From a virus: a DNA stretch of 23,923 bases. The notes beneath the pieces were generated by a model that did no database searches, had not been told where the DNA came from, and saw only the letters and a list, made by a program, of their open reading frames with translations. The stretch is taken from the IMG/VR virus record IMGVR_UViG_3300025769_000840, positions 1 to 23,923 of that record. The stretch is one strand, 5' to 3'. Both the position numbers and the translations under genes were made by a program. Positions 4,327 through 13,966 of this stretch are shown here, in pieces (position 1 is the stretch's first letter; each line of letters starts with the position of its first letter).

Positions 4327-5161
4327 TCAACAAGCTGCGTAGACGCATTTGCGGGTAACCGCATCTAAAGAACTGGGTGAATTGCTGGAAACCCTAAATA
4401 AAGAGTTGACTTCTTAAAACTATCACAATACATATAGAGCAGAGGAGAAAAGTATGAAGACCTGCTCTAAATGTAAAACAACAAAACCCTTAACAGAGTT
4501 TAATAAGACTAAATCCAACAAAGACGGTTTATCATTTTATTGCAAAGTATGTAATCGTAAAACATCTCGTCAGTACAGAGAAAAAAATAAAGATCTGTAC
4601 TACGCTAACCAGAAAGCCCGACGAGAAAATATAAACGTCTTTATCTCTCAAACCTTTTATAGTCTAAGAACAAGGTCTAACAAAAAAGGTTTAGAAGTTA
4701 CTGTTACCTCAGAGTATTTGCTGAAACTTTTAGAAGATTCTAAATTTCAGTGTGAGGTAACCGGTCAGAAAATGGATTTAAAAACTCAGCCGAGAAAGAA
4801 AGCCAACCCTTTTAAAGCCTCTCTAGATAGGATTGACTCTACTAAAGGGTATATTAAAGGGAATGTTAGGTGGGTTTGTTGGGCAGTAAATCAGATGAAA
4901 TCTGATAAAACTGAAGAAGAATTTAAGTTCTGGGTAGAAACTCTTTACAAGGCAATCAGCAGCCAAGCTTGAGCCGGGAGGCTCTTGAAGGTTCAACGAC
5001 TAGGACATACGATCTAGGCCAGATTATGAAGTCCATACGCTCAAGCGAGCGGAAGTGCCCAGCCCCTTATAGGGTGATGATATAGTCTTCTCTGCATAGA
5101 AATATGCAGCAGTTCATAAGAGAACGGGTGGGTTGGTAGCGTAACCCATTGAAAATAAAGG
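4327..5161 (+). ncRNA. Group I self-splicing intron in the capsid gene
   Basis: An 835-nt intron. P1: guide GACGC 4342-4346 pairs with exon GCGTT 4322-4326, with U.G at the cut. P2-like hairpin 4350-4363 is capped by GTAA (GNRA). A P4-region signature GAATTGCTGGAAACCC lies at ~4379-4394. P7: GACTA 4998-5002 pairs with TAGTC 5083-5087, within the familiar phage contexts GTTCAACGACTA and TGATGATATAGTC. Small P7.1/P7.2-like hairpins (GGAC 5003-5006 with GTCC 5031-5034; CGCTC 5038-5042 with GAGCG 5047-5051) suggest subgroup IA. P9-type hairpins include 5092-5109 capped by GAAA. The intron ends in G (5161), as expected. An endonuclease gene fills its middle. Known: such introns splice themselves with guanosine. 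Seen: the pairings. P3 was not resolved by eye. Confidence 0.93.
4454..4972 (+). CDS. Intron-encoded HNH-like homing endonuclease with N-terminal zinc finger
   Basis: 172 residues, sitting between the P4 and P7 parts of the group I intron. The N-terminus has a CxxC...CxxC zinc-binding pair (Cys4/7 and Cys30/33) followed by a basic helix rich in Arg/Lys/Tyr. The C-terminal half holds FQCEVTGQKMDL (98-109) and then SLDRIDSTKGYIKGNVRWV with VNQMK (123-149). This is the LDRID...KGY...N..WV...N signature seen in many phage HNH-type (His-Me finger related) endonucleases. It would cut intronless capsid genes and drive copying of the intron into them. AGAGGAG precedes the ATG. GC is about 30% at 4621-4680 against about 50% in the flanking exons, a sign of independent origin. 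I cannot see the canonical first histidine, so the exact subfamily is uncertain. Confidence 0.85.
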   Translation: MKTCSKCKTTKPLTEFNKTKSNKDGLSFYCKVCNRKTSRQYREKNKDLYYANQKARRENINVFISQTFYSLRTRSNKKGLEVTVTSEYLLKLLEDSKFQCEVTGQKMDLKTQPRKKANPFKASLDRIDSTKGYIKGNVRWVCWAVNQMKSDKTEEEFKFWVETLYKAISSQA

Positions 5162-5930
5162 TAAGATCGATGACATCGAGGCGGCTCACTCTCATGTGAA
5201 CTTTGAATCTCTTGCTACTGATCGTGCTGGTTATCGCCTTCGTGATCAGTTTGACCAGGAGATCTTCGGTTACATGTCCGGTTACAAGCAGGCCGCTCTA
5301 CACGCCAATGCTAGTGCCGCTCGTGTTGCCGCTGACAAGTCTGGTACTGATCCAGTGTCCGCCGATGCTGATGGTCTTCTTGCTTCCATGAAGCTCGACC
5401 TCGGTTCATTCGGTGGTTCTGCTGGTAACTCTATTCCAGTTGGTCAGAACACCAGTGCAATCTCTCCTCTAGCGGTTATTAACCGTATGGCTCGTAAGCT
5501 AGACCAGCAGAACGTTGATCGTGACGGTCGTTGGCTAGTTGTCGATCCGGTCTTTGCCGAGCAGCTTAATGACGAAAACTCAAAGCTTCTAAGCAATGAC
5601 TTTGCCGGTCGTCAGGATGCCGGTGATATCCTCCGTAACGGTCGTATCATCGATGGTATGGTTCGCGGTTTCCGCATCTACATGTCCAACAACCTGCCAA
5701 TCATCGGTACTGGTCCGGGCACTGTTGCTACTGGTGGTTCTTCCAGTAACTACGGTGTTATCATCGCCGGTCACGACTCCGCTGTTGCTACTGCTTCTCA
5801 GATCGAAAAGGTTGAAACCTATCGTGACAATGACAGCTTTAGCGATGTCGTTCGTGGTCTACATCTCTATGGCCGTAAGCTTCTCCGTCCAGAAGCTATC
5901 ACTCGCGCCGTTTACAACGTGTACGAATAA
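5162..5930 (+). CDS. Major capsid protein, exon 2 (residues 96-351)
   Basis: The second exon starts at T5162 and completes the split codon (TT+T = Phe). The frame is open from 5145 onward, and a GTG at 5196 within it (HSH-V-NFESLA) is not a real start. Exon lengths 287 + 769 = 1056 nt, exactly 351 codons plus stop. Diagnostic capsid segments include ESLATDRAGYRLRDQFDQEI, DGRWLVVDPVFAEQL, VRGFRIYMSNNLP and the C-terminal GLHLYGRKLLRPEA. The product forms the icosahedral shell, an HK97-like fold by inference. Codon use is backbone-like (about 50% GC at 5221-5280). Followed after GGGAGG by the probable decoration protein. Confidence 0.92.
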
Positions 5931-6464: not shown

Positions 6465-6493
6465 TTGACCTATTTGGAATACTATGATACAAT
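6465..6493 (+). promoter_or_regulatory. Possible sigma70 promoter directly after the hairpin
   Basis: TTGACC (6465-6470) and TACAAT (6488-6493), each 5/6 to consensus, are 17 bp apart. The -10 box overlaps the first codons of the next gene (ATG 6484), so this promoter could express only the tail genes downstream, not that gene's full frame. It may be chance. Confidence 0.3.
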
Positions 6494-7290
6494 TAAACTG
6501 TTCAGTCTCAGAAGATATACTCAAGTCTAACTATGAGAATAACAAGAATAGAAACCTTCCATCTATTTCTAAACTAAAGAACAGTCCACATAAACGTAGC
6601 CAAGAAATTAATATATGTGCTGCTGGACCTAGTATCAAGAAGTTTGAAGAGTTTCTTCGTACATCTAATAACGATATCTTTGCTTCCAAAACTGTAGATT
6701 ATCTTACCTCTATCGGGTGTGATCCTAGATACTCTGTCTCTATCGATCCACGAGAGTCTGGTGATAAAGCCCAACTAAATAAAAAAACCAATTACATTAT
6801 TTCTTCTCAGTGTGATCCTAGTCTATTCGATGCACTAAAGAACTACAAGACATACATGATCGATACTGTCACTTCTAAAACGTGGCGACCCTCTGATAAG
6901 TGTATGTCTGCCGGATCTAACTCCACTGTTCATGCTATTCTACTTTCCATATGGCTTGGTTATAAGAATATCAATCTATTCGGATTTGACTGCGGTTATG
7001 ATAAAGCCTCTGGTAACTATCGAGTAAACCGTGAAAATAAGCATGATGAATCTTGTGAAGAAGTAACCGTATCATGCCCTATAACAAATAAACTTTACCA
7101 TACAACCACTGAGTATATTGGTATGGCTGAGGAAGCCATGAAGATTATCCAGATACTTAGTAATCAAAAAGGTATCAACTTTAATGTCTGCGGCGATACA
7201 TTCCTAACATGTTTTATTCAAAATAATATAAACAAAACCGAGTATATTTTACATGATGACTTTCCTGTTCGCTGGTTAAAGGCTGCTTAA
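6484..7290 (+). CDS. MptE/DUF115-like Rossmann protein (moron)
   Basis: 268 residues. INICAAGPSIKKF (42-54) is a glycine-turn nucleotide-type motif after a beta strand. YSVSIDPRES (83-92) is the second family signature, and AGSNSTVHAILLSIWLGYKN followed by INLFGFDCGY forms the third (~139-168). This order (GxS, then SxDP, then a Gly-Ser/Asn helix, then LxGxDxxY) matches the DUF115 / 6-hydroxymethylpterin-diphosphokinase-like family, which also includes flagellin-glycosylation accessory proteins. The substrate is unknown here; a cell-surface or sugar-modifying role is inference. GC is ~33% (6541-6600; 6781-6840), far below the neighbours. It lies between a hairpin and the tail genes and lacks a good ribosome site (only GGA). 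These traits mark it as a recently acquired moron. Confidence 0.65.
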   Translation: MIQLNCSVSEDILKSNYENNKNRNLPSISKLKNSPHKRSQEINICAAGPSIKKFEEFLRTSNNDIFASKTVDYLTSIGCDPRYSVSIDPRESGDKAQLNKKTNYIISSQCDPSLFDALKNYKTYMIDTVTSKTWRPSDKCMSAGSNSTVHAILLSIWLGYKNINLFGFDCGYDKASGNYRVNRENKHDESCEEVTVSCPITNKLYHTTTEYIGMAEEAMKIIQILSNQKGINFNVCGDTFLTCFIQNNINKTEYILHDDFPVRWLKAA

Positions 7291-8007
7291 ATGGCAACAA
7301 CTTTCCTTACCTTAGTTAATGATACACTAAAGCGGTTGAATGAAGTCCAGCTTACTTCGGACGAATTTCCAACCGCTATTGGTTTTCATGCCTCGGTTAA
7401 GGATGCAGTCAATATTGCACTTGATGAAATCGGTCAGGAGCAGTTCGGGTTCCCGTTTAACCATCAGACCGGCACACTAACCTTGGTTGCCGGTACGTCT
7501 GTATATTCGTCTGAAAGTAATATGAAGGTTGTTGACTGGGATTCATTTCGTATCACCAAGGATGAAGCAGAAAATATCCAGGCGGTAAGGTTAAGACAAA
7601 TTAACTATGATACCTATCTTCAACGGTTCTATATTCGGGATGGTAATGCGGGTACTGCTGACTATGATACCCCTAATTACGTGTACAAAACTCTTGACAA
7701 TCGTATCGGTCTAACTCCTATTCCTGATAAAGCATATAGTATCGAGTATGACTATTACCAGTATCAGACTGCTTTGAGTAACGCTACTGATACAATGGCT
7801 GTCCCAGACCAGTTTAAGAACGTGGTTATCGATGGGGCTATGTATCACTGCTATATGTTCCGTGATAATTCTCAACAGGCTACTCTAGCCCAGCAACGAT
7901 TTATTCGCGGCATTGAAAATATGCGTAAACTGCTAACAAACAACTTTACTGATCTTCGGGATACTAGGGTTAATAGACTAATTAACGTTCCGGCAGGCAG
8001 TAAGTAA
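7291..8007 (+). CDS. Tail tubular / head-to-tail adaptor protein (T7 gp11-like role)
   Basis: 238 residues. The N-terminus (FLTLVNDTLKRLNEV, then a helix with AVNIALDEIGQE) and the middle strands (HQTGTLTLVAGTSVYSSESN; WDSFRI) have the helix-beta layout of podovirus adaptor proteins that ring the portal. The C-terminal half carries YDYYQYQTAL and a helical end (AQQRFIRGIENMRKLL). It starts directly after the preceding stop (TAAATGG) and its own stop overlaps the large hub gene, as tail tube A and B genes do in short-tailed phages. Identification is from layout and remembered sequence patterns; no catalytic site is expected. Confidence 0.7.
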   Translation: MATTFLTLVNDTLKRLNEVQLTSDEFPTAIGFHASVKDAVNIALDEIGQEQFGFPFNHQTGTLTLVAGTSVYSSESNMKVVDWDSFRITKDEAENIQAVRLRQINYDTYLQRFYIRDGNAGTADYDTPNYVYKTLDNRIGLTPIPDKAYSIEYDYYQYQTALSNATDTMAVPDQFKNVVIDGAMYHCYMFRDNSQQATLAQQRFIRGIENMRKLLTNNFTDLRDTRVNRLINVPAGSK

Positions 8008-10142
8008 TGGTTGACAATCTCCGCGATGTAACAATCATTGCTAGGGGTGGTCTATATACTAACGAGGATGCTCTAACCCTCGCTGGTACTGAACCCGGTG
8101 CGGCAATCCGTATGACAAACTTTGAGGTATCTCAGTTTGGAGGATATCGCCGGATCAACGGTTATGAGTATTATGATGCTGACAATCCACAAGTCCCCGG
8201 CACTGGTAAAGTCTTGGGTGTCTGGATTCACAACGACAAGGTCTATGCAGCAAGACGTAACTCAATTGATTCTACTTCTGCCACTCTATCTGTAGGTGCT
8301 GTATCTCTCACTTCAGGTAGTTCAATTGTAACTGTTACTTCTGCTGCACATGGTTTATCTGTTGGTGAATGGGTCACCTTTAGTAATATTGATACTAACC
8401 TTGGTGGATTAGATCTAAACAATAATGAGTTTGTAGTTGCATCTACTCCGACTACAGATAGTTTTACCTTCGTTGCTGATGAGGCTGCTGACAGCACAGT
8501 AACCAGTACAGCAGCTACAATCTTTTATACTGTAAGTCGATACTATACCATCTACGATCATACAAATGGCGTTGGCTGGTCAGCGGTAAACAACACCTCA
8601 GATACTAATACTCGTAGTGCTGTAGGCGTAACTAAACTCAGAACTAACGAACATAGCTTTACCGGGTCAGAAGTTGTAGTTGTCGTAGACGGGGTTAACC
8701 GGCCCTTAAGACATAACTCAGCAACTCCTATCGAACTATACGACCGTCAAGGTTCAAGCCTAAGCGAAACTGAGGACCAGTTATCTAACCCTTTCTCAAT
8801 CAGCAACGGAACCAGTATAGTCACTGTAGCTCAGGTTGCTCATGGTATGCACGTCGGGGATATTGTCAAGTTCAGCAATGTCAATGTCAATATCGGTACG
8901 GAAGACATTAACGGTAATGAATATACTGTTGCTACCGTAGTTGATGCTGACTCTTATACTTTTGTTATCTCAGCTACAGCTACATCAACTCAAAACAATG
9001 TAGGTGGTACAGCGGTAAACTGGTTCTATACCCATGTAGATATCGCAAATATCGAAGGTGCTAAGTTCGTCACGGATTTCCGAAACCACCTATTCTTTGC
9101 CGGTTCTGAGGATAACTCCAACAGTATCACCTTTAGTAACCCTAACTCAGACCTAAGATATGATCCGGCTGGTGGTGCAGGAGAGATTAACGCAGGTTTT
9201 ACCGTTACTGGTATAGCTAAGTTCCGTGATGCTCTATATATATTCGGTGAGAGACAGATCAAACGGTTACAAGGTAACAACTCGTCAGACTTTGTTCTCT
9301 CAGAAGTAACAAGTAATGTCGGTTGTATCGCTTCTGATAGTATCATTGAGATCGGTGGTGATATCCTGTTCCTGGCATCAGATGGTATCAGACCTATCCA
9401 GGGTACCGCCCGTATCGGGGATATCGAACTACAGACCGTATCTAAACCTATCCAGCAGATCTTGCAAGCCCTACCTGAGAACTATGATCTGGACCTTATG
9501 AGTTCTGTAGTTATCAAGAATAAATCTCAGTTCCGTTATTTCTTCCCTAGCGAGACTGGTTCTGTCACCGATGCTTTCGGTATTATTGGCGGTCTACGGT
9601 TTGCTAATAACAGTGTCGGTTGGGAGTTCGGGGAACTATTAGGTATCCGATCTTTCGTGGCTTACTCGGACACCATCAATACTATTGAGACTACGGTTCA
9701 CGGTGATCTTGACGGGTATGTATTCAAGCAAGAATCCGGTAACTCGTTTAACGGTGCTGATGTAATTGCGGTATATGCTACTCCGTTCTTTTACTTTGAT
9801 AGTACAGAGCGTCGTAAGATATTTCATAAAGTATCTATCTATACCAGACCAGAAGGTACTTCTAGTTTCAATATGGCTGTATATTATGATTGGGATGATC
9901 CTAACAAATATAACCCTAACTCTTACGGTCTTTCCACTCAAGGTGCAATCCTTCGTTATTTCTCTACCGGAGGAACCTATGGGTCAACCTTTACTTTCGG
10001 CGGTTCTAGTAGTCCCGTTCTAGAAAAGAATATCCAAGGCTCCGGCAGATCTGTCAGCTTTGTTATTACATCAATCGGTACGGAAGCACCATACAGTATT
10101 CAAGGCTGGGGCCTTACTTTCCAAGAAGCAGGATATAGATAA
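8007..10142 (+). CDS. Large tail hub / nozzle protein with duplicated domain
   Basis: 711 residues, beta-rich. The N-terminus (NLRDVTIIARGGLYTNEDAL, then GAAIRMTNFEVSQFGGYRRI) fits podovirus tail tube B / DNA-stabilising hub proteins that close the portal and form the nozzle. Two homologous ~80-residue modules are visible. The first is at ~92-174 (SSIVTVTSAAHGLSVGEWVT) and the second at ~262-346 (TSIVTVAQVAHGMHVGDIVK). Each contains AHGxxVG, a conserved NxNEyxV strand and a DxxTFV strand, then FYTx. The rest resembles a beta-propeller (FGERQIKRLQG; ASDGIRPIQGT). Start and stop overlap both neighbours (TAATGG), giving coupled translation with adaptor and fibre. Confidence 0.75.
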   Translation: MVDNLRDVTIIARGGLYTNEDALTLAGTEPGAAIRMTNFEVSQFGGYRRINGYEYYDADNPQVPGTGKVLGVWIHNDKVYAARRNSIDSTSATLSVGAVSLTSGSSIVTVTSAAHGLSVGEWVTFSNIDTNLGGLDLNNNEFVVASTPTTDSFTFVADEAADSTVTSTAATIFYTVSRYYTIYDHTNGVGWSAVNNTSDTNTRSAVGVTKLRTNEHSFTGSEVVVVVDGVNRPLRHNSATPIELYDRQGSSLSETEDQLSNPFSISNGTSIVTVAQVAHGMHVGDIVKFSNVNVNIGTEDINGNEYTVATVVDADSYTFVISATATSTQNNVGGTAVNWFYTHVDIANIEGAKFVTDFRNHLFFAGSEDNSNSITFSNPNSDLRYDPAGGAGEINAGFTVTGIAKFRDALYIFGERQIKRLQGNNSSDFVLSEVTSNVGCIASDSIIEIGGDILFLASDGIRPIQGTARIGDIELQTVSKPIQQILQALPENYDLDLMSSVVIKNKSQFRYFFPSETGSVTDAFGIIGGLRFANNSVGWEFGELLGIRSFVAYSDTINTIETTVHGDLDGYVFKQESGNSFNGADVIAVYATPFFYFDSTERRKIFHKVSIYTRPEGTSSFNMAVYYDWDDPNKYNPNSYGLSTQGAILRYFSTGGTYGSTFTFGGSSSPVLEKNIQGSGRSVSFVITSIGTEAPYSIQGWGLTFQEAGYR
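8283..9045 (+). repeat. Two protein-level copies of an ~80-residue beta domain
   Basis: Copy 1 is at about 8283-8530 and copy 2 at about 8792-9045. They share the order SIVTV...AHG..VG..V.FSN...N.G..D.N.NE..V......DS.TFV and end with FYT. DNA identity is low, so the duplication is old. This domain probably protrudes from the hub as a paired outer module. Confidence 0.7.
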
Positions 10143-12253
10143 TGGCAGGTTATACACGGCAATCTCTGGCTCAAATTCTAAACGGTGAGATCGTATCTGC
10201 ACCACCGCTTAACGCTGAGTTTAACCAGATCCTCTCAGCCTTTAATAACTCTACCGGTCATAAGCATGATGGTACTGCTGCCGAAGGTCCACCTATTGAT
10301 CGTATCGCTGACCTAGACCAGAACAATCTTATCTTTGTAGATACCAGTGCTAACCAGATCAACTTCTATGTCGAGTTCAGTGCTGCCCCTGTAGGTCAGA
10401 TCAGTATCCAAGACGGGGCTATCCTACCATTTACTGACAATGACATTGATCTAGGTTCATCCTCATTCGAGTTCAAGGATCTATATATCGACGGTACTGC
10501 TAATATTGATTCTCTGGTAGCTGATACCGCTGATATTAATGCTGGTACAATTGATAATACAGTTATCGGTGCGACCACTCCTGCCGCTGGTACATTTACT
10601 AACCTAACCGTATCTACCGGTAGCACTATTGATTTTACAGGTGCTACAGTTTCTAACGGTGGAACCTTTACCACTGTTACTATCTCAGGCGGATCTATCA
10701 CTGGCATCACTGATCTAGCGATTGCTGATGGCGGTACAGGTGCATCTACTGCTTCTGCCGCCCGGACTAATCTTGGTCTAGCAATCGGGACTAATGTTCA
10801 AGCCTATGATGCCGGTCTACAGTCTATCTCCGGCCTGACCACTTCTGCTAACCAGATGCTATATACCACGGCATCTGATACTTATGCAACCACTAGTCTT
10901 ACCTCAGCCGGTCGGGCATTGCTAGATGATGCTGATGCTTCTGCTCAACGGACTACACTCGGTCTAGGTACGATTGCTACTCAGAATGCTAATAACGTAG
11001 CAATCACAGGCGGGACTATCTCTGGTATCAGTAACCTGTCTGATATCGGTAATGCACTTCCTTACACCTTTAGCACAACCACAACCGACTCTGATCCTGG
11101 TAGCGGTGTACTTAGGCTAAACAATGCCACCCAGAATACCGCTACGGAAATCTATATTGATGATGAAGAAGCTAATGCAGCCGATGTATCTGCTTTCATT
11201 CAGTTGCTATCAGGTGGTAACAATCCTTCATCTGTTCTAGGTACGATCACCCTACGTAAAGAGTTTAGCCCGGAATCTTTCCTACAGTTTAAGGTTACAG
11301 GTGTAACTAACGCTTCCGGTTATACTAAACTCACTATTATTAATACATCTTCAAGCACAGCCAGCCCGTTTTCTAACAGTGACAGTGTATTCCTTGATAT
11401 CAACCTAGCCGGTGATAAGGGTGATCCAGGTGATGTAACCGGTCCCGCCAGTTCAACCGATAATGCTATTGTTCGCTGGGATGGGACAAGTGGGAGTCTG
11501 GTCCAGAATAGCGGTGTTGTTATTGATGATAGCGGTAATATTACTGGTGTTACTTCTATTACCGCTTCCACAGGTAACTTCACTACTGTAGATATTGACG
11601 GTGGTGATATTACAGGTATTACAGATCTAGCCGTAGCCGATGGTGGAACAGGTGCAAGTGACGCTGCCACGGCAAGGAGCAATCTAGGTGCTGGTGATGT
11701 AAACGGTCCATCCTCTTCTACTGACAATACGCTTGTTAGATGGGACGGAACTACCGGTAAAACTATTCAAAACTCTGGTTGGGCGCTATCTGATGCAGAG
11801 GCTTTAACTGCCGGTGGCACTCTCGACATGAACGGCAATACGCTGACGGTCGACGCCGTGACCTTGAGCGGCGTGGTGTCTGGCGGCGACAACGAAGTAA
11901 ACAGGGTGAAGTTCAAAGACATCTCTGAAACAGTAGTCACAGCAAATTCCGGGGCGACCTATACGATTGACTTGGAAAACGGGAACGTTTTCAAGATCAC
12001 GTTGACCGCCAACTGTACCCTCACCTTCAGCAACCCGCCCGCGACGGGAAATTACGGCTCTTTCCGTTTAGAACTTATCCAGGATGGAACTGGCAGCCGC
12101 ACGGCAACCGTGCCTGCATCGGTCGATTGGCCGAATGGAACGGCTCCGACGCTTACGACAACGGCCACGACGGGCAAGGACGTGTTGTTTTTCGAGACGA
12201 CCGACGCCGGGACGACTTGGCTGGGGTACGTGTCGGGTCAGGCGTTCGCCTGA
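10142..12253 (+). CDS. Tail fibre protein with GC-rich exchanged C-terminus
   Basis: 703 residues. The N-terminal anchor (LNAEFNQILSAFNNSTGHKH, then DGTAAEGPPI) is the common virion-attachment domain of short-tailed phage fibres. The shaft has repeats: DLAIADGGTGASTASAARTN (~195-214) recurs as DLAVADGGTGASDAATARSN (~496-515), and an SSTDNxxVRWDGTxG unit occurs twice. A short collagen-like GDKGDPGD (~423-430) joins two parts. The last ~145 residues (from about LTAGGTLDMNGNTLTVD) form a beta-rich tip whose DNA is markedly GC-rich. The trimeric fibre would bind the host surface receptor. The stop TGA overlaps the next ATG (12251-12255), pairing it with the SPRY-like protein. The frame is intact across the composition change, so this is a functional chimera rather than a broken gene. 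Confidence 0.88.
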   Translation: MAGYTRQSLAQILNGEIVSAPPLNAEFNQILSAFNNSTGHKHDGTAAEGPPIDRIADLDQNNLIFVDTSANQINFYVEFSAAPVGQISIQDGAILPFTDNDIDLGSSSFEFKDLYIDGTANIDSLVADTADINAGTIDNTVIGATTPAAGTFTNLTVSTGSTIDFTGATVSNGGTFTTVTISGGSITGITDLAIADGGTGASTASAARTNLGLAIGTNVQAYDAGLQSISGLTTSANQMLYTTASDTYATTSLTSAGRALLDDADASAQRTTLGLGTIATQNANNVAITGGTISGISNLSDIGNALPYTFSTTTTDSDPGSGVLRLNNATQNTATEIYIDDEEANAADVSAFIQLLSGGNNPSSVLGTITLRKEFSPESFLQFKVTGVTNASGYTKLTIINTSSSTASPFSNSDSVFLDINLAGDKGDPGDVTGPASSTDNAIVRWDGTSGSLVQNSGVVIDDSGNITGVTSITASTGNFTTVDIDGGDITGITDLAVADGGTGASDAATARSNLGAGDVNGPSSSTDNTLVRWDGTTGKTIQNSGWALSDAEALTAGGTLDMNGNTLTVDAVTLSGVVSGGDNEVNRVKFKDISETVVTANSGATYTIDLENGNVFKITLTANCTLTFSNPPATGNYGSFRLELIQDGTGSRTATVPASVDWPNGTAPTLTTTATTGKDVLFFETTDAGTTWLGYVSGQAFA

Positions 12254-12831
12254 TGCCGGTCGGACACGCAAAACTCGTCGGGTTGGGAAGCAAAGTTCCG
12301 CTGGTCCAGACCACCTGGAATCCCGCGGACACGGACGGCAACATTACACTGTCCAGCGGAAACCGTGTCGCTAGCATAAACAACTCGGCAGGCGTCTATA
12401 AAGGAACACGATCCATCAAGCAAACGGATGGGTCGAACAAATTGTACGGCGAAATCACTATCGGAACGACGGTGGCCAACAACATTTTTGGCGTTGGAAC
12501 CTCGACTGTTTCACTTTCGAGCGGCTACCTAGGAAGCACCTCGGGTGGCTGGGGGGTGCAGTACAACGGTGACAAGGTGCACAACAATATCTTCTCATCG
12601 TACACGGGCGGCCCGATCACGAACGGCGACATATTTATGGTGCGATTTGATAGCACCACGGGGGATTTGTACTTCGGTCGAAACGGGTCGTGGTTTGACG
12701 GAGGGTCGCCAATATTTACAGGTGTCTCGGCGAACGTATTTTTGTTCGCGTCAATGTCGGGGCTAGCTTCGGCAACACTTGCCGCAAACCTAACCTACCC
12801 TGTTCCGTCTGGCTATGAAATTTGGACCTAG
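12253..12831 (+). CDS. SPRY-like (concanavalin-fold) fibre-associated protein
   Basis: 192 residues. I choose ATG 12253 because it overlaps the fibre stop (TGATG). An upstream in-frame ATG at 12127 would overlap the fibre by 42 codons and is unlikely. The C-terminal ~140 residues resemble a SPRY/B30.2 domain: GGWGVQYNGDKVHNN, then NGDIFMVRFDSTTGDLYFGR leading to NGSW, then a final FLFASMSG strand. In phages such domains sit at fibre tips and bind surface ligands, so this is probably a second receptor-binding subunit or a tip cap. The DNA is GC-rich like the adjoining fibre tip, and the two probably moved together. A weak point is that no SPRY ligand-binding residue can be assigned. Confidence 0.72.
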   Translation: MPVGHAKLVGLGSKVPLVQTTWNPADTDGNITLSSGNRVASINNSAGVYKGTRSIKQTDGSNKLYGEITIGTTVANNIFGVGTSTVSLSSGYLGSTSGGWGVQYNGDKVHNNIFSSYTGGPITNGDIFMVRFDSTTGDLYFGRNGSWFDGGSPIFTGVSANVFLFASMSGLASATLAANLTYPVPSGYEIWT

Positions 12832-12840
12832 GAGGTAGCG

Positions 12841-13497
12841 ATGTTTGAGCACTCTACGATTGTTGTTCGCCACGACGACGGTGCTTACCAAGCACACGGC
12901 AAGGTGCGCGACATGGCGCCGCACGCCTTGTTCCCGCGCCTGATCCCACTGGCGACGCTGACCGAACTGTCTCTGGCGCCAGTGTCGTTTGTGACCACCC
13001 TTGGAGAGGGCGAGGTCTGGGATGGCGATCCCGATATCCCGAGCGGACAACTGGCGGCTTCTGGATCATGGGAGTACGGGCGTCCGAAAAGAGCGATGAA
13101 TGAGGTTGAGCAGCTTGCCGAGCTAGAGCGCCTGAAAGACGCGAAGAAAGCCTCTATCACGGCGCGTTTCCGCGATTTGATCGCAGAAGGCGTGACCGTC
13201 GACGGGGAGGTGATTGACCTATCTCCTAGCGGGTTCACGACACTGGAGCAAGCTCTTAGTGTCGTCCCGGTCGAGGCTGTTACAGCACGCGGGGCGCGGA
13301 TCAGTTTGCCGAACCAAGCGGCGGTCAACGCGATCCTGGCGGCGGCACGAGCGCGCTACAAGGCACTCGTTCAACGAGAGGCGGCGCTGTTCGACGCGGT
13401 CGACGCGGTGACTACGTGGGCGGGTCGGGGCACCCTCGATAATATCGACGCCAATGACGGGTCCATCGGCGGCGTCGAGTCTTGGCCTGCGCCATGA
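12841..13497 (+). CDS. DUF4376-like fibre-linked protein (possible tail fibre assembly factor)
   Basis: 218 residues with a good AGGAGG site nine bases upstream of the SPRY gene's end. The N-terminal half (VVRHDDGAYQAHGKVRD; LSLAPVSFVTTLGEGEVWDG) is beta-like. The C-terminal half (DAKKASITARFRDLIAEGV, then a helical stretch ending LDNIDANDGSIGGVESWP) matches the general DUF4376 pattern of an R/K-rich helix, a central segment and a terminal helix ending near GWP, which is common in genes directly after phage tail fibres. Its role is probably fibre assembly or attachment. The composition is GC-rich, so it belongs to the acquired cassette. Family assignment is moderate; chaperone function is inference from position. 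Confidence 0.65.
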   Translation: MFEHSTIVVRHDDGAYQAHGKVRDMAPHALFPRLIPLATLTELSLAPVSFVTTLGEGEVWDGDPDIPSGQLAASGSWEYGRPKRAMNEVEQLAELERLKDAKKASITARFRDLIAEGVTVDGEVIDLSPSGFTTLEQALSVVPVEAVTARGARISLPNQAAVNAILAAARARYKALVQREAALFDAVDAVTTWAGRGTLDNIDANDGSIGGVESWPAP

Positions 13498-13522
13498 CAA
13501 AGCCGTAACCAGGGCAGGTGAT

Positions 13523-13702
13523 ATGATTGAGGCTGATGCAACTCAGGCAACGGCAATCTTCATAGCGGTTGATGATTATATCGCGGAATGTTGGTCACGA
13601 GAATATGATCTTCGGGTAGCAATTAATGCAGCCGCAAATGCTACAGAACTCGAGGCTATCGACATTACTTCTGGTTGGCCTGTATCAGAACAACCCAAAT
13701 AA
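13523..13702 (+). CDS. Short DUF4376-tail-like protein, possible remnant of the replaced gene
   Basis: 59 codons starting at ATG 13523 (preceded by GGCAGGTG). An in-frame ATG at 13454 lies inside the previous gene and is less likely. Composition is back to backbone level. The sequence CWSREYDLRVAINAAANATE then LEAIDITSGWP resembles the last ~35 residues of the upstream 218-residue protein (FDAVDAVTTWAG...LDNIDAN...SWP), ending in the same GWP/SWP. I infer that it is the surviving C-terminus of the original fibre-assembly gene after the GC-rich cassette replaced the rest. Whether it is still translated as a stand-alone protein is unknown. Confidence 0.5.
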   Translation: MIEADATQATAIFIAVDDYIAECWSREYDLRVAINAAANATELEAIDITSGWPVSEQPK

Positions 13703-13735
13703 TAATATAAACTCTTTTGTTCAGGATTCTCGGGC

Positions 13736-13966
13736 ATGGATTTATCACCAACCGTTATATGGAATATAATCCTATCACTTATAGTGGCACCTGCCGCTTG
13801 GATATTCAAGTCTTTATTCTCAGAGATTAAGCGTCTTGAGGAAAAACTTCAAGACACCCGAGAAGAGTACGCCACTCGTGCAGAACTAAGGGAAGATATG
13901 CGCCGTGTTATGGAAAGTCTTAACCGGCTTGAAGATAAACTTGACAAGATACTAGAAAAGAGGTGA
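13736..13966 (+). CDS. Small membrane protein with coiled coil (holin-like)
   Basis: 76 residues. Residues ~7-27 (VIWNIILSLIVAPAAWIFKS) form one transmembrane helix, followed by a charged helix/coiled coil to the C-terminus (EIKRLEEKLQDTREEY; VMESLNRLEDKLDKILEKR). One N-terminal membrane span plus a cytoplasmic or periplasmic coil resembles haemolysin XhlA/holin-type phage proteins. Position between fibre and internal protein genes is common for lysis genes in short-tailed phages. An alternative is a structural membrane anchor. The ribosome site is an AGGA ~10 bases upstream. Confidence 0.55.
   Translation: MDLSPTVIWNIILSLIVAPAAWIFKSLFSEIKRLEEKLQDTREEYATRAELREDMRRVMESLNRLEDKLDKILEKR

Follow-up and report, generated by a model that had tools for sequence, protein, structure and literature searches.

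The window analyzed here is the whole of IMG/VR record IMGVR_UViG_3300025769_000840 (23,923 bases). It contains a tail fiber gene whose 3' end, together with the two genes that follow, lies in a GC-rich block at 11815-13500. The features of this locus are listed below.

10142..11824, + strand: tail fiber, N-terminus that anchors it to the virion, and shaft (composition of the backbone, GC3 0.33; PHROG tail fiber matches)
11815..11854, + strand: GC-rich 'LDMNGNTLTVD' handle (window and sibling contig L004 identical over 11504-11854, unrelated from 11855)
11825..12253, + strand: fiber C-terminal 'platform' domain, 142 aa (GC3 0.725; homologues in other loci)
12253..12831, + strand: SPRY-domain protein, 192 aa, putative tip adhesin (PF00622 match and position)
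12841..13497, + strand: DUF4376-like protein, 218 aa, putative fiber/adhesin chaperone (PF14301 match below cutoff; 43% aa identity to the L002 counterpart)
13499..13718, + strand: remnant, the last 64 codons and 3' flank of a different DUF4376 gene (DNA identity to L024/L025)
13736..13966, + strand: small coiled-coil/spanin-like gene, where the backbone resumes (DNA matches in relatives restart at 13736)

The start of the SPRY gene overlaps the fiber stop codon by 1 nt (TGATG), and the DUF4376-like gene follows the SPRY gene directly, a place that it also holds in L002, L003, L007, L008, and L020.

By its sequence the backbone is that of an HMO-2011-type marine podovirus. The type is also marked by a DNA polymerase with a DnaJ-like domain; the fragment carries structural genes only. 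A homologous adaptor or tail protein, a homologous fiber N-terminus, and the order coat, tail, fiber mark this type, and all three were found in the window. The adaptor protein (7291-8004) has 36-42% aa identity to those of CRP-1, CRP-235, and HMO-2011, the fiber N-terminus has 50-61% aa identity to fibers of HMO-2011, CRP phages, and pelagiphages, and the order of the coat protein, tail protein, and fiber genes agrees with HMO-2011 and CRP-235. HMO-2011 is a Puniceispirillum phage and the CRP phages are Roseobacter phages.

The initial annotation had described a backbone-like fiber shaft leading into GC-rich tip, SPRY-like, and DUF4376-like genes at 11815-13500, with a return to backbone downstream, and the composition of the window agreed. 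The GC fraction was 0.579 within the block and 0.457 in the remainder of the record. The GC-richest stretch of this length starts at 11808, and the best non-overlapping stretch reached 0.543 (mean 0.457, SD 0.030); a two-breakpoint maximum likelihood fit to GC placed the edges at 11810 and 13520. GC3 was 0.33 in the shaft, 0.725 in the platform, 0.635 in the SPRY gene, 0.688 in the DUF4376-like gene, and 0.31 in the next segment, and the 15 backbone genes averaged 0.380 +/- 0.036, with a maximum of 0.45. Because the difference is seen at third codon positions (0.64-0.73 versus 0.38), the GC richness of the block is not attributable to amino acid bias. GC is uneven within the block, and 11885-12004 is only 45-47% GC. 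The return to backbone held for composition, with the refinement that a second scar, at 13499-13718, adjoins the 3' boundary first. At the other boundary, GC steps up near 11815, yet the window and L004 are identical through 11854, and the two therefore have a GC-rich handle of approximately 40 bp in common. A DMNG or DMDG motif is found at the handle position in L007, L008, L012, L013, L020, and L002, and DMAG in L014. The handle at 11815-11854 is likely to be the 5' crossover zone.

With the 711-aa tail protein as query, 20 relatives were recovered. Three of these, L004, L005, and L006, have an overall identity of 97.8-98.2% to the window, and most 250-bp bins from 5200 to approximately 11450 are 98-100% identical, the exception being a patch at 8450-9950; the shaft keeps this level over most of its length. 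Beyond the handle, L004 continues with sequence that is also GC-rich (GC3 0.81). L005 parts from the window at 11535; 4.7 kb of other fiber and tip genes follow there before the match returns at 13624, at 100% identity as far as 13774. In more distant relatives (80-88% identity) the match breaks near 11540 and resumes at 13736, the position at which DNA matches to the window begin again in L007, L008, L009, L013, and L020. That backbones so nearly alike bear different tips directly demonstrates recent replacement, and the tip exchange proposed in the initial annotation was thus confirmed. Both marks of an exchanged module were found, namely differing modules on near-identical backbones and a module common to phages with otherwise unrelated genomes.

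When the segments were matched separately, the shaft found AT-richer HMO-2011-type phages (L004-L023, 43-49% GC), and the best match of the tip lay in contigs of 62-63% GC with another capsid, as had been anticipated. These contigs, L002 and L003, carry the same trio in the same order (fiber end, SPRY, DUF4376-like) with aa identities to the window of 79%, 78%, and 43%, respectively. Their DNA matches the window from 11816 to 12836 at 69%, and their capsid belongs to another lineage, PHROG 1328, with Sinorhizobium phage phiM5 as the best named match (51%). A 69% DNA identity together with an AT-rich SPRY gene rules out L002/L003 as the direct donor, and no exact donor of the tip was found, these two being the nearest, with a SPRY gene AT-richer than that of the window. 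The SPRY gene of L002 (6443-7018) has a GC3 of 0.44 in a contig of 62% GC, the neighboring platform and DUF4376 genes having values of approximately 0.70-0.73 and the capsid gene 0.84; in L002 the adhesin gene alone looks foreign, and it was seemingly imported there too. The proposal of import from a GC-rich phage therefore stands in part. The tip does have kin at 62-63% GC, but phages of the L002 type are not simply the source, and the event was no one-off, since the slot has also been exchanged with T4-like contigs of 34-42% GC. No SPRY homologue was found in genome contigs, and neither SPRY nor DUF4376-B was found in cultured phages. A peptide-pattern search for DUF4376-B in viral contigs gave no match, a weak negative given that L002/L003 carry a 43% homologue.

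Just past the stop of the DUF4376-like gene, at 13499-13718, lies what is left of a second DUF4376 gene, its 3' end, read in a different frame. Over these 220 bp the window is 97.7% and 98.6% identical in DNA to L024 and L025, in which T4-type genes follow (head-tail adaptor, sheath stabilizer, and large terminase). The gene is intact in the T4-like L024, and we accordingly rejected the idea that the remnant at 13508-13702 is the backbone's own ancestral DUF4376 gene. L005 retains a shorter piece of the remnant, from 13624, and the 252 bp preceding it are 87% identical to the upstream region of L024. The common ancestor of the window and L005 therefore probably had an older cassette that was later cut differently in each lineage.

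A further scar was found in L008 and L009, contigs from two samples, which match the T4-like contig L040 over 1,160 bp at 94% and are near-identical to it at the end of this stretch. The stretch takes in the glycine-rich gene and the intergenic leader downstream of it, and runs on into the opening codons of the next gene. The leader precedes a T4-type prohead protease in L040, and the first codons of the protease are fused to the DUF4376 gene in L008/L009, which suggests that the transfer ran from a T4-like phage to the podovirus. Bases 1-377 of L040, in turn, match the window shaft at 94.7%, and traffic between podoviruses and T4-like phages thus seems to run both ways, as judged from this one contig, which shares its sample code with L005 and could therefore be a chimera. 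At 13490-13570 of L008, and likewise in L009, the DUF4376 gene begins MKLITDV, the first codons of the T4-like prohead protease. The leader in both includes ACATAAATA, a late-promoter-like site identical to that of L040.

The platform has homologues at 23 viral and 10 genome loci, with aa identities to the window of 79% in L002 and 68-71% in L008, L012, and L020. Its predicted structure is beta-rich (pLDDT 82). A fold search of the PDB with this model returned only low TM-scores, the top match being the Pa223 capsid spike at 0.46, and the viral structure models that matched it included many fiber ends. In most platform loci that could be read onward, a gene starts at the fiber stop or within approximately 25 nt of it. 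The product of this gene is a SPRY protein in the window and L002 (and, by alignment, L058), a glycine-rich protein in L008, L020, L040, and most of L044-L053, a LamG-like (lectin-like) protein in L012 (and, by eye, L057), and a 519-aa protein in L007/L013, with others elsewhere. L008 and L020 are approximately 92% alike on both sides of the adhesin gene, which itself differs. The adhesins of L012 and L020, LamG-like and glycine-rich, respectively, have approximately 14 N-terminal codons in common (MLGASKA..LLGAAG) and unrelated bodies. The window SPRY protein begins MPVGHAKLVGLGS, as does that of L002. From this slot pattern, in which leader codons are common while adhesin bodies differ, we infer that the short N-terminal leader docks on the platform.

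The window protein matched PF00622 with 30.8 bits, above the gathering cutoff of 26.3, and its L002 homologue scored below it, at 22.6. The product is thus a SPRY protein and not a gp38-type glycine-rich receptor-binding domain. A sequence search of the PDB with it found only weak eukaryotic SPRY matches, and a fold prediction from three sequences was unusable (pLDDT 32). The L008 and L020 products are glycine-rich by sequence, their matches to the ALK/LTK glycine-rich domain being sub-threshold. The DUF4376-like protein scored 21.2 bits against PF14301, below the cutoff of 25, and its slot-mates in L007 (52.7), L008 (59.8), and L024 (25.8) scored above it. In Alteromonas phages V22 and A5, DUF4376 proteins have been demonstrated or modeled to be fiber chaperones (PMC7289586, PMC10579305). 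Chaperones of this class, typified by V22 gp27, are marked by being required for an active fiber while missing from the finished fiber complex.

We consider it highly probable that 11815-13500 is an acquired host-recognition cassette in a slot that has undergone repeated replacement. Because this is a metagenome contig and common fiber motifs can mislead assemblers, the assembly might instead have merged a podovirus backbone with the tip genes of a GC-rich phage, and an exact-junction search found the 13498/13499 junction in no other IMG/VR contig. Such an artifact would, however, need two independent misjoins enclosing exactly one complete module, in frame on the 5' side and with a stop on the 3' side, where there is no DNA similarity to L002/L003 that could drive a misjoin. 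Sibling L004 likewise has the handle leading into a GC-rich tip, though another one; the join between remnant and backbone recurs in L005, and the gene order of the trio in L002/L003. We regard a misassembly as very improbable. We give still less credence to the notion that the GC-rich tip is the old tip of the lineage and the AT-rich tips of relatives the imports. GC-rich tips are present as well in L004, L005, L007/L013, and part of L014, but these are unrelated in DNA to the window's tip, which departs widely from the backbone in GC3, and the remnant directly downstream in both the window and L005 comes from another cassette, with a backbone-like GC3 of 0.31.

It is also conceivable, if unlikely, that the SPRY and DUF4376-like products are passengers or decoration proteins and that recognition resides in the fiber C-terminal domain itself. 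The platform is the C-terminus of the fiber, its most variable part could bind a receptor, and the phage literature searched held no direct precedent for a SPRY adhesin. The platform is nevertheless conserved across phages, whereas the product of the next gene varies in fold (SPRY, glycine-rich, LamG, and others), and glycine-rich proteins at or beside fiber ends are known receptor-binding tips, as with S16 gp38 and Pam3 gp24 (PMC9608196).

For the acquired cassette that we favor, the following course may be proposed. During co-infection, recombination would have swapped the old tip, with the coding sequence around the handle serving as the 5' homology; the 3' junction was apparently illegitimate. 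As read directly in the window, the fiber keeps its virion-anchoring shaft, and at the short conserved 'DMNG' handle the gene switches to a foreign C-terminal domain, followed by the SPRY and DUF4376-like genes, all of them GC-rich in codon usage; the 3' edge of the block falls within what remains of the DUF4376 gene of an earlier cassette. The C-terminal domain would act as a socket and the product of the next gene as the adhesin, its short leader docking on the socket and its body, here SPRY, binding the receptor, while the DUF4376-like protein would be a chaperone that helps the tip to fold. Swapping the whole set, or the adhesin gene alone, would then alter the receptor recognized. The adhesin role and the docking leader are deduced from position and pattern, and for the window the chaperone role is putative; a host change, or a host common to high-GC phages, as the initial annotation suggested, may reasonably be supposed. 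We propose more tentatively, and with somewhat less than even confidence, that a conserved fiber-end domain present on several tail types accepts adhesins of unrelated fold (SPRY, glycine-rich, LamG, propeller-like repeats) through a conserved leader, and that single adhesin genes are traded across families at sea. If so, the hosts of marine phages would be predicted by adhesin sequence and not by phage taxonomy.

Cultured phages offer a parallel. CRP-9 and CRP-13 (HMO-2011-type) and the cobavirus CRP-4 are Roseobacter phages all isolated on strain FZCC0023. They have in common a fiber-end domain (approximately 80-83% aa identity over the last 121-132 residues), the next gene of approximately 650 aa (44-49%), and a small third gene (53-56%). 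The same tip type on the same host across families fits the host-recognition reading, but it is not independent proof because CRP-9/13 and CRP-4 also have replication modules in common. CRP-9 and CRP-13, of the same backbone family as the window, were described as HMO-2011-type and Cobavirus recombinants and likewise attest recombination between phage groups (PMC8528129). That work concerned combinations of replication and morphogenesis modules, and it states that too little nucleotide similarity kept their precise boundaries elusive (PMC8528129), whereas the boundaries of the tip exchange are resolved here.

That unrelated phages exchange host-recognition modules is already established (PMC10579305). 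In Alteromonas phages A5, V22, and P24, a fiber and downstream DUF4376 chaperone are common to podo-, myo-, and siphoviruses whose genomes are in other respects unrelated (PMC10579305, PMC7289586). That sharing is at the protein level (45-96% similarity), and the passages of these two reports considered here present neither mapped junctions nor a separate fold-changing adhesin gene between fiber and chaperone. The window junctions, in contrast, are placed at single-base resolution, and phages of different types share up to 98% DNA identity. In T-even gp37/gp38, S16 gp38, and Pam3 gp24/gp25, a protein at or next to the fiber end is the receptor-binding tip, often glycine-rich, as in L008, L020, and L040 (PMC9608196); the tip protein of the window is instead a SPRY protein, and unrelated folds fill one slot. 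What is new here are the nucleotide-level boundaries, the nested remnants, the scars between T4-like phages and podoviruses, and the replacement by a different fold in one slot. Boundaries, order of replacement, and scars common with T4-like contigs can all be read directly.

Several other segments of the window depart from its relatives. The patch at 8450-9950, within the gene for the 711-aa tail protein, falls to 89-97% identity in L004, L005, and L006 alike, with flanks at 99-100%, and is a probable second recombination tract. Within the gene for an 894-aa protein with a lysozyme-like N-terminus, 1500-2250 has a GC content of 62-66%, and alignment to relatives such as L004 is lost over approximately 1585-2260; this GC-rich segment may be another that was exchanged. 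An insert at 4327-5162 splits the coat-protein gene; most relatives lack it, the gene being uninterrupted in L004. Within it lie an HNH endonuclease-like ORF (4454-4972) and, at 4857-5109, a match to a group I intron (Rfam RF00028, 44.6 bits, E 6.5e-10, under the gathering score), and its 3' end is 92-95% identical to sequences of enterobacterial and other phages. Finally, an AT-rich ORF at 6484-7290 (36% GC, GC3 0.31) lies amid the structural genes and is unaligned in L015/L016.
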